Source: a virus. From it: a stretch of 24,137 nt of DNA. The translations under genes and the position numbers were made by a program. How positions within the stretch are numbered: the first letter of the stretch is position 1; the number at the start of each line of letters is the position of its first letter. The notes below the pieces were generated by a model. That model made no database searches and was not told the DNA's origin. It was given only the letters and a program-made list of their open reading frames with translations. Positions 11,543-18,731 of this stretch are shown one piece after another. The stretch is from the IMG/VR virus record IMGVR_UViG_3300031539_000309, positions 1 through 24,137 of that record; one strand, 5' to 3'.

Positions 11543-11571
11543 GGCCCCTCCCAAACGGGAAGGAGTTGGAG

Positions 11572-13398
11572 ATGAGTTGGAAAAAGACGAAAGCACTGAT
11601 TGGACTGTTGCTGGTCCTGGCCTTCGTCGGCCGGGTTGAGGCCGTGCCGATTGCTCAGGCCGAGGAACGGCTTGGCAACTACACCGGCCCCTCCAGCGGC
11701 ACCGCGCAGGACGACAACGTGAAAGCGTCCCTCGACTTGCTGCACAGCAAGGTCGGCGGGAGCGTGGACAACATCGGCACTGGCAACGTGTTCTATGTGG
11801 ACTCGAACGTGGCGAGTGAGGGTGCAGGGACCAGTTGGATTGGCGCCAAAGACACCCTCGACGAAGCCGTTGATTTATGTACCGACAACAACGGCGACGT
11901 GATTTACGTGGCTCAAGGCCACAACGAGAACTGGAACTCGACCGACTCGGCGAACCTCGACGTTATCGGGATTACCGTCATCGGTTTGGGAACCGGCACC
12001 AACCGTCCGCGCTTCGATTACGATACCGCGGACGCCGAACTGGTCATCGGTGCGGCGAACGTCAAGATTTACAACCTGACGTTTCAGCCCGGTTTGACCG
12101 CGGTGGTTCACGCCATCGAGGTTGAGGCGGACGCCGACGGTTCCATCATCGACAGTTGTGAGTTTCTAAGCGGCGAGTCCGAAACCGACGACGAGTTCAT
12201 CGACGCCATTCAACTCGCCACGGCTGCCGACGACATGATTATCAGCAACAACGTCGCTACCGAAGTGACGGCGGGCGCCAATACGTGGCTCGATGCGTCC
12301 ACGGGCATTGTGGACAACCTGGTTGTCATCGGCAACCGCGTTTGGGGCATTTATGCCGAGGGCGGGCTTTACAGCAACAAAGCCTGCACCCAATGCTACA
12401 TTGCCGACAACGAAGTGACCAACCTCAGCACCGGCATTGCGGCGATTACGTTCTCCGGCAATGCCACCGGCACGCTCGTCAACAACTACGCTTCCTCGGA
12501 CACGCCCGGGACCATCATTGACCCGGGCTATATGCAGCAAACCGGGAACGTGGAGACCGACGAAGGTGCCAACGAGGACGCCGACCAGGCCCCTGCTTGG
12601 TTTGGGGCGGCTGCCGGTACGGGCGCTTATCCCATCAACGTCGAGGACGATTCGCTCATTGCGAAGATTCTCACGATGGACAATACGGGCGTGGCGACGA
12701 TTGCCGATTTCAGCAATGCCACCATGTCGCTGGAAGCGCTCAACGTTGACCTGGATGCGATTCTGGCGGACACGGGAACTGACGGTGTTGTGCTTGCCGC
12801 CGATGCGATTACCGCCGCCAAAATAGCGGCTGATGCTATCACGAACGCGGAAATCGCCAACGATGCTATTGGTGCTACGGAAATCGCGGATGCGGCGATT
12901 GACGCTGCCACCTTTGCGGCTGGTGCCATTGCCGCAGCAGGCATCGCCGACAACGCCCTGGATGCAGCCACGTTTGCGGTAGCCATCAAGCCGCCGCAGG
13001 TAGTGCTCAAAGCCAATGCCGACCTGACCGGCTACGACGATGCTGTCTGGTTTACCGTCACCGGCGACGTGCTGGTTCGGATTGTCGGTGTGGTAGGCAG
13101 TACGGGGATTACGTCCTCGTCCGGCACGACCGCCTTCACGCTCGGAACAACTGAGGATCCCGATGCGATTATCGCGTCTACGGTGGTTGACAATGGGGAT
13201 TTCGCCGCGACGGACGTATGGGTGGACAACAACCCGGAGGACGATGCTCAGGTAATGACCGCCACCGAATGGATTGTTCTCGGTGGCGGCGCCGACATCA
13301 CCCTATTCAGGGATGTTGACGACATAGCCGCTGGAACCCTGACGTTGTATTGCTACTGGGTTCCGCTCAGCACAGATGGCGCGGTGGTGGCGGGACCG
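11572..13398 (+). CDS. exported-looking right-handed beta-helix protein with decapeptide repeats
   Basis: The predicted product is 609 residues from ATG 11572, with AAGGAG 6 nt upstream; the stop codon is 13399-13401. Residues 1-24 look like a Sec signal peptide: Lys4, Lys5 and Lys7, a hydrophobic core at about 8-20 (ALIGLLLVLAFVG) and a VEA cleavage site. From about 73 to 340 there is a parallel beta-helix pattern beginning NVFYVDSN and continuing with TVIGLGTGTNRPRF, VKIYNLTF and VVIGNRVWGIY. Residues 409-468 are six 10-residue Ala-rich repeats. The last ~130 residues form a beta-rich domain (TVTGDVLVRIVGVVG, GTLTLYCYWVPLSTDG) that I recall from many environmental phage proteins. It could be a spike, fiber or head-fiber component, or an exported protein; the signal peptide argues against a simple tail spike. 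Confidence 0.72.
12796..12975 (+). repeat. six 10-codon repeats in the beta-helix gene
   Basis: Six consecutive 30-bp units encode degenerate decapeptides: AADAITAAKI, AADAITNAEI, ANDAIGATEI, ADAAIDAATF, AAGAIAAAGI and ADNALDAATF. Ala is first in each, position 5 is Ile or Leu, position 10 is Ile or Phe. The DNA units have diverged at third positions, so the repeat is old and kept at protein level. They probably form a fibrous helical or beta-roll stalk between the beta-helix and the C-terminal domain. Confidence 0.9.
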
Positions 13399-13422
13399 TA
13401 AGGCTTGAGTTGCAGATGTGTC

Positions 13423-13481: not shown

Positions 13482-14048
13482 ATGGCATACAGCGAAACCC
13501 TTATCGTCAACCTCGCCCTGGCGCGGATAGGGGCGAAGCGCATCAGCGACCTGGCGGCCGGCACATCCCTGGAAGCCATCCAGGGACGCACGCATTACGA
13601 GCACACGCGGGACGCCCTTCTTCGCTCTCACCTTTGGCGGTTCGCGACGGCGCGGGCCGAGTTGTCCGAAGATACCGACACGCCGGATTTTCAGTGGGGC
13701 CACCAGTTCATTCTGCCCGCCGACTTTCTGCGCGTGGGCACTCTCTACAACACAACGGCGTCGTATGCCGTGGAAGGCCAGCGTTTGCTCACGGATGATT
13801 CGGCGGTTGACCTGGTTTACATCAGGAAGGTGGCGAACCCCACCGAGTTCGACCCCCTGTTTGTCGAGGTGCTGGTCCTCAAGTTGGCGATGGCGATGGT
13901 GATGCCGCTGGCGCAAGACAAGGTGCTCAGGCGGGAGATTCAAGACGAACTGGCGGGCGTGATGTCTAAGGCCCGCGTGGTCAACTTGCAGGAAATCAAC
14001 ACGGTTGGCCGCGACGACCGGAATACTTGGCTCGACGCTAGGGTTTGA
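13482..14048 (+). CDS. tail tubular protein A (T7 gp11-like)
   Basis: The predicted product is 188 residues, close to T7 gp11 (196). Typical pattern: N-terminal ETLIVNLALARIGAKRISDL, then RDALLRSHLWRFATARAEL, FILPADFLRVGTLYN and a C-terminal helical DELAGVMSKARVVNLQE. This adaptor protein forms a ring between the portal and the tail nozzle. The ATG follows GGGGTGAGCG. It begins 10 nt after the terminator T-run and is followed by tail tubular protein B. Confidence 0.9.
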   Translation: MAYSETLIVNLALARIGAKRISDLAAGTSLEAIQGRTHYEHTRDALLRSHLWRFATARAELSEDTDTPDFQWGHQFILPADFLRVGTLYNTTASYAVEGQRLLTDDSAVDLVYIRKVANPTEFDPLFVEVLVLKLAMAMVMPLAQDKVLRREIQDELAGVMSKARVVNLQEINTVGRDDRNTWLDARV

Positions 14049-14050
14049 TT

Positions 14051-17000
14051 ATGCCCAATGTGGCGGTAACGAGTTTCAATAACGGGGAAGTCACTCGGCA
14101 CATCGACGCGCGGGGTGACGTGGAGAAATATGCGTCCAGTTGCCGCACGCTGGAGAACATGCTGCCCTTGATTTACGGCGACGCGGCACGGCGGCCCGGC
14201 ACGAAGTATATCGCCACGGCGAAAAACAGCCCGCAAGGCGTCCGCCTCGTCCCCTTCATTTACTCCTCCGAAATCGCCTACATGTGCGAATTCGGCGACC
14301 TCTACATTCGGTTCTATCACGACGGTGCGCCGCTGCTGGATGTTGGCGGCGTTCATGTCGAGACCGCTTCGCCCTATCTGGTTGCCGATTTGCCGCAACT
14401 GCAATACCGGCAGATTGCCGACACGATGTGGCTGGTTCACCCGAACTACGCGCCGCAGAAACTGACGCGCACGACTGTGACCTCGTTCTCGCTGGATGAG
14501 ATTGTGTTTGAGAACGGGCCGTTCCTCACCCGAAACGACATCGCCGAGGAAGATGACGTGACGATGACATCGAGCGTGACGACGAAAGCCGCCACTGGAA
14601 CATTGACGGCTTCCGCCGCCACGTTCGAGAACGAGCACATAGGGGCGCTGTGGAAACTTGTTCAGCCGCGCGCCAACACGGTCGTCACATTGGGCATCAC
14701 TGCGATTGACGAGAGCGACGAGTTGGCCGTCAAGGGCACGTTTACTTTCACGACCCACGGCACCTGGACAGCGACGGTGGTGTTGAAACGCAGCGCGGAC
14801 GGAGGGACTACGTGGGACGCATACCGGACCTGGATTGGCGTAGATGATAAGAATGTCTCGTTTGCGGGCACCGAAACCGAGGACGATATTCTGTATCGAA
14901 TCGACGTGACCGCCTGGACGAGTCACACGACCGCCACAGCCGACTTGTCTGTTGATTTGTCCACGCAGGATGGCATTGTCCGCATTGACGGCATTGCCTC
15001 TCCGACAGTAGCGAACATCACGGTCCTGTCGGCCCTGGCATCCACGAATTCCACGACGCGGTGGGCGGAGGGCGCTTGGTCGCGCGTTCGCGGGTATCCC
15101 ACGGCTATCACGTTCTTCGAGAGCCGCATCATCTACGGCGGGACCGACTACGAACCCCAAACCCTTTGGCTGAGTGCCACGGACGATTACGAGGATTTTG
15201 AGGCCGGGGTGAACGACGCGGACTCGTTTTCCGTGACGCTGGCCGCGACGAACCGGATTCGCTGGATAGAAGCCCTGGAAACCCTGGCTATCGGCACGTC
15301 CGGCGACGAGTGGCGCGTGTCGTCTGACAAACTTGACTCGCCGCTCACGCCCACGAACTTCGGCGCGAAGATACAGTCCACCTACGGCGGGAAGGACTTG
15401 CAGGCCGTCCGGGTCAATACGGCTGTCCTGTTCGTGGATTATGTCGGGCGGAAAGTCCGCGAGTTCACGTTCAGCGCCGACCAGCAGAAGTATGTGGCCC
15501 CGGATCTTACGGCCCTGGCCGAGCACATCACCGAAAGCGGCATCGTCAGCCTCGCCCACCAGAAAAGCCCCGACTCGATTCTCTGGTGTGTCCGGGCCGA
15601 CGGAACGTTGCTCTCGATGACCTACGAGCGCGAGCAGAACGTCGTGGCCTGGGCGCGGCATCTGGTCGGGTTGACGCAAACCGAATCTACCGACGTGGAC
15701 CTCACGGTGATTTCGGCGGTGGACGCTTGGGGCAATATCGTCACTGGTTCCGGCGGCAGCCTCGGAGTCATGCTTTATGACCAAGCGTATCAACAGATTC
15801 TTCGGACGCGCAGTCCACCTTATAGTTTTACTTACCACGTTCACCAGGACATCAACGGCAACTTCTATACCGGGCAGAAAGCAGCCGGTGCCGGCACCCC
15901 GGTCAAACTAAACCCGCAACTTGAGGTTGTCACCGACTGGCCCGCTTACACGAACTGGGGGACGAGTTCATCATATTATGTGTATTCAGTCCGACCCACA
16001 CACGACGGGGAATACGTTTACGTTGTGAGTCAACACGGCTCCTACATCGCAGTTACGAAGTTGACGGCGGATACCGGCGACCTGGTGTGGCGGCAGGTGA
16101 GCGCAGGCTATACCGCTCCACCCTACGACATTGGCGTGTTAAGCAACGGTGACGTTATCGTGCCGAACTGGATTCACTATCCGGCGAGCATCTTTTTCCC
16201 CATCATCCTGGCCTCGGCGGACGGAACGCGCGTCTCGAACTATTACGACGCGACTTCATTGACCAATCGCGGCGGCGGGGGGAACTATCGCATCTGCGTT
16301 GTGGAATCAATTGGCAAGTGGTTCACGTGTGGAGTCAACCGAGCAACGGACGAGGTTCGCGGCGCTGTCATGGCGTTTCATCTGGGAGACACGTACCAAC
16401 TAAACAAGGCGTGGAACTTTGACCCCGTGCCGGGGAACGGCACGAATACTTGCCTGGGCGTGGTCTATAAGGATGGCTACGTTTACGCCGTCGGGAACCG
16501 CGTCGTTTACGGCGGTGGCTATGCCTGCGTTTGGAAAATCAACGCCGAAACCGGCGCGTTGGTGGCCAGCGCCGACCTGGGGTTCGGTCTGCAAGACATC
16601 TTCTTGAAGAACGACCTGACCCTCGTGGCGGTGCGCGAGAGCAACACCGACACCTGGACGGAACTCACCGACGACTTGGTAGTTATCAGCCAGACGGATA
16701 GGGACGTGGCCCCCGTCACCAACCAGACCATCTGGCGGGCGGAAGCCGTGCCGGACCCCATCTTCTATCCCGGCGCTCCGACCGTGAACATCCTTTACGC
16801 AGAAGCCACCGGCGCGGTCGAGAGCGTGGCGACCATCCCCGGAGATACCGAGGACGAAGTATGGATTTCCGTCCTTCGGACTGTCAATGGTTCGACGGCG
16901 CGCTATATCGAGCGGATGCAGCCGCGCACGTTTGACGAACAGGCGGACGCCTTCTTTGTCGATTGCGGAATCATCTATGACGGCGACCCCACAGACACCT

Positions 17001-17470
17001 TCACGGGGCTAGACCACCTTGAAGGCGAAATCGTTGCCGTTCTCGGCGACGGAGCGGTGTTTGCCACTGAGGAGGTGAGCGGCGGCGCCATCACGATTGC
17101 AAACGAAGTGTCCAAGGCAGCCATCGGGTTGCCGTTCAGGTTCACCCTGAAACCGATGCGCCTCGACCAGTTATACGCGAACGCCCCGCGCGGCGCGAGC
17201 AAAGGCAGTTTCAAGAAGATTGCCGAACTCGTGATTTCGTTCCTGGACACGCTCAATGCGAAGTACGGAACCTCGGCGGACGAACTGTTTCCCATCGAGT
17301 GGCGAACGACGGAGGCGCACGACACGCCGCCGGCACTTTACACCGGCGACATAGTAGTGCCGTTCGACGGGGGGTTCGACCCGGAAGACCCGATAGTGAT
17401 TTCCGGGGAAGACCCATTACCTTGCACTGTCCGGGCCATCATCGCCCGGCTGGACGTCGTAGGGAGGTAG
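14051..17470 (+). CDS. tail tubular protein B (T7 gp12-like) with propeller-like insertion
   Basis: The predicted product is 1139 residues from ATG 14051; T7 gp12 is about 794. The N-terminus has TSFNNGEVTRHIDARGDVEK and GDAARRPGTKYIA, typical of the podovirus tail nozzle. Residues about 165-330 are a beta-sandwich-like segment, and 340-540 carry AITFFESRIIYGGT and MTYEREQNVVAWARH. The usual continuation GAVESVATIPGDTEDEVW appears only near residue 920, then RYIERMQPR, FTGLDHLEGE and a conserved C-terminus. Between them, about residues 545-905, lies an inserted repeat region with PQQ/propeller-like motifs (KLTADTGDLVW at 670, KINAETGALV at 829). Six copies should form the lower tail tube where fibers attach. 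Confidence 0.9.
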   Translation: MPNVAVTSFNNGEVTRHIDARGDVEKYASSCRTLENMLPLIYGDAARRPGTKYIATAKNSPQGVRLVPFIYSSEIAYMCEFGDLYIRFYHDGAPLLDVGGVHVETASPYLVADLPQLQYRQIADTMWLVHPNYAPQKLTRTTVTSFSLDEIVFENGPFLTRNDIAEEDDVTMTSSVTTKAATGTLTASAATFENEHIGALWKLVQPRANTVVTLGITAIDESDELAVKGTFTFTTHGTWTATVVLKRSADGGTTWDAYRTWIGVDDKNVSFAGTETEDDILYRIDVTAWTSHTTATADLSVDLSTQDGIVRIDGIASPTVANITVLSALASTNSTTRWAEGAWSRVRGYPTAITFFESRIIYGGTDYEPQTLWLSATDDYEDFEAGVNDADSFSVTLAATNRIRWIEALETLAIGTSGDEWRVSSDKLDSPLTPTNFGAKIQSTYGGKDLQAVRVNTAVLFVDYVGRKVREFTFSADQQKYVAPDLTALAEHITESGIVSLAHQKSPDSILWCVRADGTLLSMTYEREQNVVAWARHLVGLTQTESTDVDLTVISAVDAWGNIVTGSGGSLGVMLYDQAYQQILRTRSPPYSFTYHVHQDINGNFYTGQKAAGAGTPVKLNPQLEVVTDWPAYTNWGTSSSYYVYSVRPTHDGEYVYVVSQHGSYIAVTKLTADTGDLVWRQVSAGYTAPPYDIGVLSNGDVIVPNWIHYPASIFFPIILASADGTRVSNYYDATSLTNRGGGGNYRICVVESIGKWFTCGVNRATDEVRGAVMAFHLGDTYQLNKAWNFDPVPGNGTNTCLGVVYKDGYVYAVGNRVVYGGGYACVWKINAETGALVASADLGFGLQDIFLKNDLTLVAVRESNTDTWTELTDDLVVISQTDRDVAPVTNQTIWRAEAVPDPIFYPGAPTVNILYAEATGAVESVATIPGDTEDEVWISVLRTVNGSTARYIERMQPRTFDEQADAFFVDCGIIYDGDPTDTFTGLDHLEGEIVAVLGDGAVFATEEVSGGAITIANEVSKAAIGLPFRFTLKPMRLDQLYANAPRGASKGSFKKIAELVISFLDTLNAKYGTSADELFPIEWRTTEAHDTPPALYTGDIVVPFDGGFDPEDPIVISGEDPLPCTVRAIIARLDVVGR

Positions 17471-17473
17471 GCC

Positions 17474-18334
17474 ATGACGATTTCCAACACCACAAACCGA
17501 ACCTCGGCGGACGGAACGAACACGGTCGGCCAATCGGTCCCGTTCCTGTTCCCCGTCACGGCCACGAGCGACGTTGTAGTGAAGACGCGCGTGGCGGCCA
17601 CGGGTGTTGAAGCGACCTTGGTCGAGACGACCAACTACACCGTTGTCCTAGCCAGCGGCGAGGGCGGTTGGGTTGAGATGGTCACGGCGGTTGCCACGAC
17701 GAGCGAAATCCATATCATCCGGGCCACGCCGCAAACGCAGACGACCGACCTGGCGCAGGGGGGCGCGTTCAGCGCGGAAACCATCGAGGCGGCGATGGAC
17801 AAGTTGACGAAGTTGATTCTGGACCTCGCCATCAGCCGGATTATCCGTATGCCAGACACGGACGCTGCGCTCACGATGGAGTTGCCGACCGCGATTGACC
17901 GTGCGAGCAAGTATCTGAGTTTCGACGCGAGCGGAAACCTAACCGCAACGGCTCTGGCCGACGCGACTGCGTTATCCGCCAGCACGCTCGGCGAATCAAT
18001 CCTAGCCATAGCGAGCGAGGCGTTGTTCAAGGCGCTGGTGAACCTGGAAATCGGCACGGATGTTCAAGCATACAGCGCCTTGTTGACTGCCATCGCTGCC
18101 ATTACGCCGACCAACAGTTACTTCATCGTCGGGAACGGCACGACGTGGGTGCGGGAAACCGGGGGCACGGTCCTCGCCTCGCTTGGCATCAGCACATTTA
18201 TCCAGACGCTTCTCGACGACACGACTGCGGCGGCCGCCGTGACTACTCTAGGTCTGCCGAGCGTCGCCGATTACCTCTTTTACGAAAACGCTGCACTGGC
18301 GTATGACAACGAAGCACTAACCTGGGTGGCATAA
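17474..18334 (+). CDS. tail fiber protein with T7-fiber-like N-terminus
   Basis: The predicted product is 286 residues; ATG 17474 follows GGGAGG inside the end of the previous gene. The N-terminal 150 residues (PFLFPVTATSDVVVKTRV, then TTDLAQGGAFSAETIEAAMD and KLTKLILDLAISRIIRMP) match the tail-attachment domain of T7-type fibers. The rest has short fiber repeats such as PTNSYFIVGNGTTWVRETGG and LASLGIS. At 286 residues it is much shorter than T7 gp17 (553) and lacks an obvious receptor-binding or enzymatic tip, so it may be an adaptor for another protein, perhaps the product of the next gene. Confidence 0.82.
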   Translation: MTISNTTNRTSADGTNTVGQSVPFLFPVTATSDVVVKTRVAATGVEATLVETTNYTVVLASGEGGWVEMVTAVATTSEIHIIRATPQTQTTDLAQGGAFSAETIEAAMDKLTKLILDLAISRIIRMPDTDAALTMELPTAIDRASKYLSFDASGNLTATALADATALSASTLGESILAIASEALFKALVNLEIGTDVQAYSALLTAIAAITPTNSYFIVGNGTTWVRETGGTVLASLGISTFIQTLLDDTTAAAAVTTLGLPSVADYLFYENAALAYDNEALTWVA

Positions 18335-18344
18335 GGAGCACGTG

Positions 18345-18731
18345 ATGGCCGACGCGAAAGAGAAAACGGTAGCGCTGTTGAGTACGACTACGGTTGGGAC
18401 CAACCTGGCCACGACAGGCGAGACAACCATTTACACCGTCCCGGCGGGCAAGACGTGCATCTTGTCCCATGCGTGGCTGAAGGCCAGTGCCGATGTCGGC
18501 GGCAGCCTGGATTTCACCATCGGGCAAGACACGGCCGAGACGGACTTCGTGGGGACGACCGCCGGTGACAATCTGGACAACGCCAACGATGTTATTCTCA
18601 TCGCGCCCGTGCCATCGGCGACTCCTACGATGCAAAAAGCGTATGCGGCCGGGACGGTTATCAAGTTCAAGGTGACGGTTGCTGGTAATGCCGTGACTGG
18701 GACCGTGTACCTGTTTGGGTTCCTATTCTAA
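18345..18731 (+). CDS. small beta-rich virion-associated protein
   Basis: The predicted product is 128 residues; ATG 18345 has GGAG 6 nt upstream (GTG 18342 is too close). Alternating hydrophobic strands are visible (TTIYTVPAGKTCILSHAWL, DVILIAP, TVIKFKVTVAGNAVTGTVYLF), a jelly-roll-like small domain without signal peptide. I recall similar short proteins next to fibers in environmental phages, with no known function. A fiber tip, decoration or carbohydrate-binding role is possible and not proven. Confidence 0.65.
   Translation: MADAKEKTVALLSTTTVGTNLATTGETTIYTVPAGKTCILSHAWLKASADVGGSLDFTIGQDTAETDFVGTTAGDNLDNANDVILIAPVPSATPTMQKAYAAGTVIKFKVTVAGNAVTGTVYLFGFLF

Follow-up and report, generated by a model that had tools for sequence, protein, structure and literature searches.

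In known short-tailed phages the tail nozzle gates the DNA, and fibres or spikes recognise the host. The 24 kb virus record analysed here (24,137 nucleotides, in the following the window) encodes a nozzle which, according to an initial annotation, is about 350 residues longer than T7 gp12 and is followed by an unusually short fibre gene. We asked what the additional part of this protein is, where comparable parts occur in related nozzles, and whether it might contact the host.

The long protein is a tail nozzle

The reading frame begins with an ATG at 14051, codes up to 17467 and is uninterrupted until the stop codon that ends at 17470. In a profile search it matched the tail protein family phrog_376 with E=1.9e-200, and the match to this nozzle family was significant in both the N- and the C-terminal part. 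The Carin1 tail nozzle (PDB 8ck1) was matched with E=6e-89 over the stretches 7-537, 920-980 and 981-1137. When the predicted nozzle model was compared to known structures using Foldseek, the best 14 matches were phage nozzle or tail-complex structures, T7 among them, and Carin1 was found with E=6e-40 and a TMt of 0.71. The gene order adaptor, nozzle, fibre is present as well. We conclude that the product of this 1139-residue reading frame is a T7 gp12-like tail nozzle. The genes of this region are:

13482-14048, plus strand: adaptor (tail tubular protein A), 188 aa (phrog_394, E=1.7e-44)
14051-17470, plus strand, stop codon included: tail nozzle protein (tail tubular protein B), 1139 aa (phrog_376, 8ck1, Foldseek)
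17474-18334, plus strand: short tail fibre, 286 aa, with a T7-type N-terminal attachment domain and without the long distal part of most relatives (phrog_1640, E=1.9e-18, residues 1-115)
18342-18731, plus strand: 129-aa protein, in relatives often found after proteins that end in a YEN..YEN-type tail

Between the major capsid region and the adaptor lies a further gene (11566-13401), whose product of 611 aa has a signal-peptide-like N-terminus and a beta-helix-like look. Among the loci fetched, only L021 carries a close homologue (58%). This protein is a second candidate for host contact or decoration.

An insert of 382 residues divides the nozzle core

The initial annotation had placed one extra block at about residues 545-905 (15680-16770) and had suggested looking for a continuous gap in podovirus homologues at this place. 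Such a gap was found, with slightly wider borders. The contig L002, whose nozzle is 60% identical to that of the window, passes from residue 537 to 920 with three residues between them, and the Carin1 nozzle passes from 523 to 527 where the window nozzle has the insert. In one alignment the junction 537|920 was free of an insert in 18 of 18 nozzles, and most nozzle homologues join the two positions directly. Since L002, Carin1 and the 18 aligned nozzles are without it, the insert is not conserved nozzle core. Removing it leaves a normal core of 757 aa, and the insert therefore accounts for the excess length over T7 gp12 that had been noticed. The domain names used for the core parts below are by analogy with T7 gp12 (PMC6702177).

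14051-15661, plus strand: first part of the nozzle core, residues 1-537, with N-terminal platform strands, tip domain and propeller blades to MTYEREQNVVAWARH (alignment to L002 and 17 other nozzles)
15662-16807, plus strand: insert, residues 538-919 (382 residues), putative beta-propeller module (gap in homologues, PQQ_2/BamB, Foldseek, L027)
15662-15709, plus strand: start of the insert, LVGLTQTESTDVDLTV (sequence comparison with L028)
16058-16090, plus strand: PQQ/propeller-like motif KLTADTGDLVW, residues 670-680 (inside the Pfam PQQ_2 match)
16535-16564, plus strand: PQQ/propeller-like motif KINAETGALV, residues 829-838 (translation)
16808-17467, plus strand: last part of the nozzle core, residues 920-1139, with blade 1 strands and platform (alignment to L002, Carin1 and others)

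A search of viral contigs for the insert recovered an identical contig and the distant homologue L027, and nothing else. The former, L001 (9157 bp, 100% identical), includes the entire insert and may not be an independent assembly. Close relatives were found neither in phages, plasmids and genome_contigs nor in two samples of about 390 genomes each, and the single weak match outside viral contigs (L215) did not stand on inspection. The first residues of the insert do recur. L028 has LVGPSPVVESSVDLSV at the equivalent place, identical to the window in 9 of 16 residues, ahead of a different module. The likeness of the two starts (window 15662-15709; L028 from 6600; LVG..ES.VDLxV), with unlike modules behind them, suggests that both inserts begin with a common linker and that the modules were exchanged behind it.

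Windowed GC and codon use had been proposed as a test of recent acquisition. The GC content of the insert is 57.9% compared to 60.3 and 60.8% in the flanks. Some of the AT-richness that had been pointed out thus exists, but it is weak and stays within the range of the record (13th percentile of equal-sized coding windows). The codon-use distance of the insert was exceeded by 30% of equal-sized windows. Because GC lies in the range of equal windows and codon use is ordinary for the record, recent acquisition is not indicated. Other origins were tried and rejected: similarity of the insert to the nozzle's own propeller, as expected of a duplicate, was not significant (best E 0.22); an intein does not fit a segment that begins with L and has no C-terminal HN and no Pfam intein match; an intron does not fit a reading frame that is intact across 1139 codons. 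Several relatives show nozzle gene splits at three sites and duplicated N-terminal segments, and such signs would be consistent with passengers, either mobile or neutral, that a surface loop tolerates (intein-like, intron-like or recombination debris). We consider this hardly credible, given the lack of intein ends in the window insert, the unbroken frame, the composition like that of the flanks and the adhesion-type families from which the modules come.

The insert resembles beta-propellers

Both PQQ/propeller-like motifs that had been read from the translation are present. In Pfam the insert matched PQQ_2 with E=7e-4 (19.8 bits, cut-off 27.6) and in NCBIfam BamB with E=0.0086 (14.8 bits, cut-off 285.2), and up to E=10 no other family of these two collections was matched. 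Since both scores lie under the curated cut-offs, we do not file the insert as a member of the PQQ_2 or BamB family. AlphaFold2 ran on the insert without a useful alignment, and confidence was low: a two-sequence model of the insert reached a pLDDT of 41 and a pTM of 0.41, and in the full-length nozzle run the insert stood at a pLDDT of about 30. The model with pLDDT 41 has several four-stranded meanders in a row (106-148, 209-251 and 262-308 in insert numbering). When this model was searched with Foldseek, all or nearly all of the best 50 PDB matches were propeller proteins, at a TM of about 0.2-0.4, among them 1l0q (YVTN), BamB and YncE. Along the sequence we counted, partly by eye, about seven DG-x-VY-type turns (561, 602, 652, 699, about 749, 808 and about 857) spaced by roughly 41-57 residues.

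Of the proposal that the block is a beta-propeller, the affinity to propellers was borne out by three weak but concordant lines (PQQ_2, BamB and fold search), while the closed multi-blade ring was not, the models having a pLDDT of about 30-41. On these models the insert is probably a propeller of about seven blades, and its blades would presumably close to a ring. BamB/PQQ-like and YVTN propellers are its best profile and fold matches. In contrast to the BamB/PQQ-like proteins, the insert scores under the family cut-offs and sits in a phage nozzle, and the likeness implies no cofactor or BAM function. The low model confidence, the weak profile E-values and an ungapped repeat test that was not significant would also be compatible with an all-beta fold of another kind or with a region of degenerate repeats, and the matches would then reflect generic beta-meander similarity. 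Against this, Pfam, NCBIfam and the PDB fold search agree on the fold and the turns recur along the insert, and we judge such a reading to be distinctly unlikely.

Related nozzles carry unlike modules at three core positions

Viral contigs and genomes were surveyed for nozzles, which fell into 135 clusters; 117 of these were spanning. Variable tip aside, all but about two (L021 and L191) of the inserts of at least 180 residues in these 135 clusters lie at three core positions:

Site A: core residues 54-65 (nozzle cluster survey)
Site B: core residues 537-541, the site of the window insert (nozzle cluster survey)
Site C: core residues 592-605 and a little beyond (nozzle cluster survey)

At site B the contents differ widely. 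L027 has the distant propeller-like homologue of the window insert (tblastn E=0.002 over about 100 residues; the contig ends soon after). L032 has a repeat insert of about 455 residues that matches Pfam GLUG with E=7e-7, L028 an insert of 591 residues with repeats that are of GLUG type by resemblance only, and L207 and L204 carry smaller inserts. L046 was first counted near this site and then reassigned, as its sequence puts the insert after blade 1. In L026 the nozzle ends four residues past WARH and its remainder is a separate reading frame; the two halves are separated by a tailspike-like gene (PF12708, E=4e-19), which has a Shine-Dalgarno-like site of its own. Core 537-541 is therefore a fixed junction at which the conserved carrier holds exchangeable domains, with propeller-like inserts in the window and L027, GLUG-type inserts in L028 and L032, and a separate PF12708 gene in L026. 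Judged from sequence, the window junction is a module site for unlike adhesion-type domains or gene splits.

L026 has a tailspike gene of pectate-lyase type at the site B junction, L042 has one next to its split nozzle, and propeller folds include glycosidases and lyases. Both observations would fit an enzyme, a propeller-type glycosidase or lyase that degrades surface polysaccharide en route to the membrane. We regard this as very unlikely for the window insert, which matches no enzyme family of Pfam or NCBIfam even at E=10 and, by eye, has no Asp-box motif; most of its best fold matches are propellers of the binding type (YVTN, BamB and YncE).

At site C, L013 has an insert of 329 residues with a LamG domain (PF13385, E=9e-22). 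In four further loci the nozzle consists of two reading frames with serine-rich stretches. The split lies at about core residue 600 and the two frames differ (L115 5995-10240, L122 1-4240, L125 5989-10585, L149 5995-10645). Serine/proline/alanine-rich repeats occur at the end of the first reading frame and in the second, and in L149 a reading frame of 88 aa lies between the halves.

At site A the nozzle itself begins at about residue 65 in six loci (L031 4135-9862, L034 4962-9252, L037 4965-8962, L042 5001-9215, L098 4986-9335 and L134 5995-9460). The N-terminal segment of 58 residues is found there on one or two separate upstream reading frames, usually one long GLUG-type and one short. This arrangement looks as if the platform strands were supplied in trans.

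Some features lie apart from the three sites. The nozzle of L022 (3274-5898) has about 136 extra residues with a carbohydrate-binding-type look after core residue 91, a fourth insertion place. Single in-frame stop codons occur in the otherwise continuous nozzle frames of L032 (6177-6179) and L021 (7348-7350), and the one in L021 adjoins an insert of 240 residues at about core residue 375.

The sites probably flank the blade where fibres dock

In T7 the C-terminal domain forms the platform barrel together with three strands contributed by the first 45 residues, and the fibre dock joins the end of the propeller to the platform (PMC6702177). In phage SU10 both entry and exit of the chain are in blade 1 of the propeller, which lies far from the axis and carries the dock for short fibres (PMC9509320). 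The predicted model of the window nozzle has strands at 498-504, 510-515, 520-526 and 531-537, then the insert, then strands at 921-929, 936-945 and 948-956. By analogy, site B would follow the last full blade (blade 7) and precede blade 1, and sites A and C would lie at the entry to and the exit from blade 1. The published topology together with the strand order of the model thus places all three sites beside the outward blade where fibres dock, and by the same analogy the insert would be oriented outwards.

Modules tend to go with absence of the usual fibre

The short fibre gene reported downstream of the nozzle was confirmed. The fibre has 286 aa in the window and 274 aa in L028, and other untruncated ones have 296-858 aa, which makes these two the shortest. 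For the wider comparison, whole records were scanned using an alignment of the T7-type fibre N-terminus; the short fragments L027 and L095 were left out. This N-terminus was detected in all 18 clade members that lack a module and in 3 of the 20 that bear one (window counted; Fisher p=4e-8). Shared ancestry may explain much of this relation, because the tree offers no more than two independent pairs that are informative (both pointing the expected way, 2:0), and an absent fibre can be a gap, since virus records may be incomplete. The module bearers with a fibre are the window, L028, where it lies several kb from the nozzle, and L013, where it is cut by the contig end.

Proteins of the 129-aa family often follow directly after fibres or short anchor proteins with a repeated C-terminal motif of the type V-x-YEN-x(2)-V-x-YENE-x-V (window 17474-18731, L034 6312-7144, L037 4965-5699, L117 8247-10871, L031 4135-5001, L017 7432-8207). 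The 129-aa protein may be a partner of this tail, either capping it or docking on it.

The fibre gene of the window is kept, immediately after the nozzle, and in T7 and SU10 the fibres dock on extensions beside blade 1 (PMC6702177, PMC9509320). The insert might thus be a structural or docking domain that makes no host contact and holds the short fibre or another appendage, or stabilises the nozzle between its subunits; the 129-aa neighbour and the YEN-type tail of the fibre do suggest further appendages. We consider this rather unlikely, as the modules at the site are unlike one another (propeller-like, GLUG-type repeats), a tailspike-like gene stands there in L026, and in most relatives with a module there is no such fibre that could dock.

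A proposed propeller-type module for host contact

At a probability of about two in three, we propose that the insert is a propeller-type adhesion module, displayed six times on the outside of the nozzle, which binds the host surface and supplements the shortened fibre. The idea of host contact gains support from the adhesion-type modules at this junction and two others and from their association with loss of the T7-type fibre. As a graft, the module would occupy the loop that leads from blade 7 to blade 1 in the seven-bladed propeller of the nozzle itself. A hexamer with a central DNA channel is assumed for the window nozzle from its relatives (PMC6702177). Since nozzles of related phages have six subunits, each tail would expose six modules, on its outside and close to where the fibres dock. 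They would bind a sugar or protein of the host surface and supplement or replace the distal part of the fibre, which in the window is reduced to little beyond its attachment domain. We speculate that binding at the nozzle could link host recognition with the opening of the channel gate. It could act directly on the gate, because gate opening in T7 needs displacement of the propellers or of whole protomers (PMC6702177). A nozzle-type protein has been reported to bind a host receptor (PMC7241545), and a point mutation in one to change host range (PMC10904470). Since module-bearing relatives have mostly lost the usual tail fibre, host recognition has probably been taken over by the nozzle itself.

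Insertions in nozzle-type proteins are known already, on the tip side (crassvirus muzzle, PMC10172136; SU10 nozzle domains). The nozzles of T7 gp12, Carin1 and P-SCSP1u have the same fold as the window core, which aligns with Carin1 (8ck1) over the full length and with T7 by fold. However, Carin1 has no domain at the insert junction, and the published T7 and P-SCSP1u nozzles consist of platform, fibre dock, propeller and tip only (PMC6702177, PMC10575957). The crassvirus muzzle (phi-crAss001 gp44) is also a nozzle-type propeller enlarged by inserted domains thought to contact the cell; its insertions lie between blades 2 and 3 and in blade 3, at the tip side, and have an unknown 'crass fold' (PMC10172136), whereas the window insertion lies beside blade 1 and has propeller affinity. 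In SU10 an extension of blade 1 is the dock for the short tail fibres (PMC9509320), a short tryptophan-bearing loop that holds a separate fibre, while the window has a putative folded adhesion-type domain in the same chain. Modular tailspikes and fibres, with a conserved anchor and an exchangeable distal domain, likewise swap unlike adhesion-type modules on a conserved carrier, but here the nozzle itself serves as carrier, and its gene in relatives is divided around the module. In the open papers (subscription literature lay outside the search) we found no account of exchangeable adhesion modules beside blade 1 or of nozzles split around them.

A broader reading, which we put forward tentatively and at somewhat less than even odds, is that this clade moved host recognition from fibres to the nozzle. 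It would have used exchangeable modules (propeller, GLUG-type repeats, LamG) at three sites around blade 1, or cut the nozzle gene there and kept the module as a separate protein. In one sub-group the 58-residue platform strands would be carried on separate GLUG-type proteins and supplied in trans, and the nozzle fold would then be completed by receptor-binding proteins. The split nozzles make completion of the nozzle fold by strands of another protein testable. Should the nozzle indeed contain recognition modules, one polypeptide would govern both host range and channel gating, and the usual searches for 'tail fibre' genes would miss the determinant of host range. The tolerant sites would then show where natural nozzles accept whole domains.
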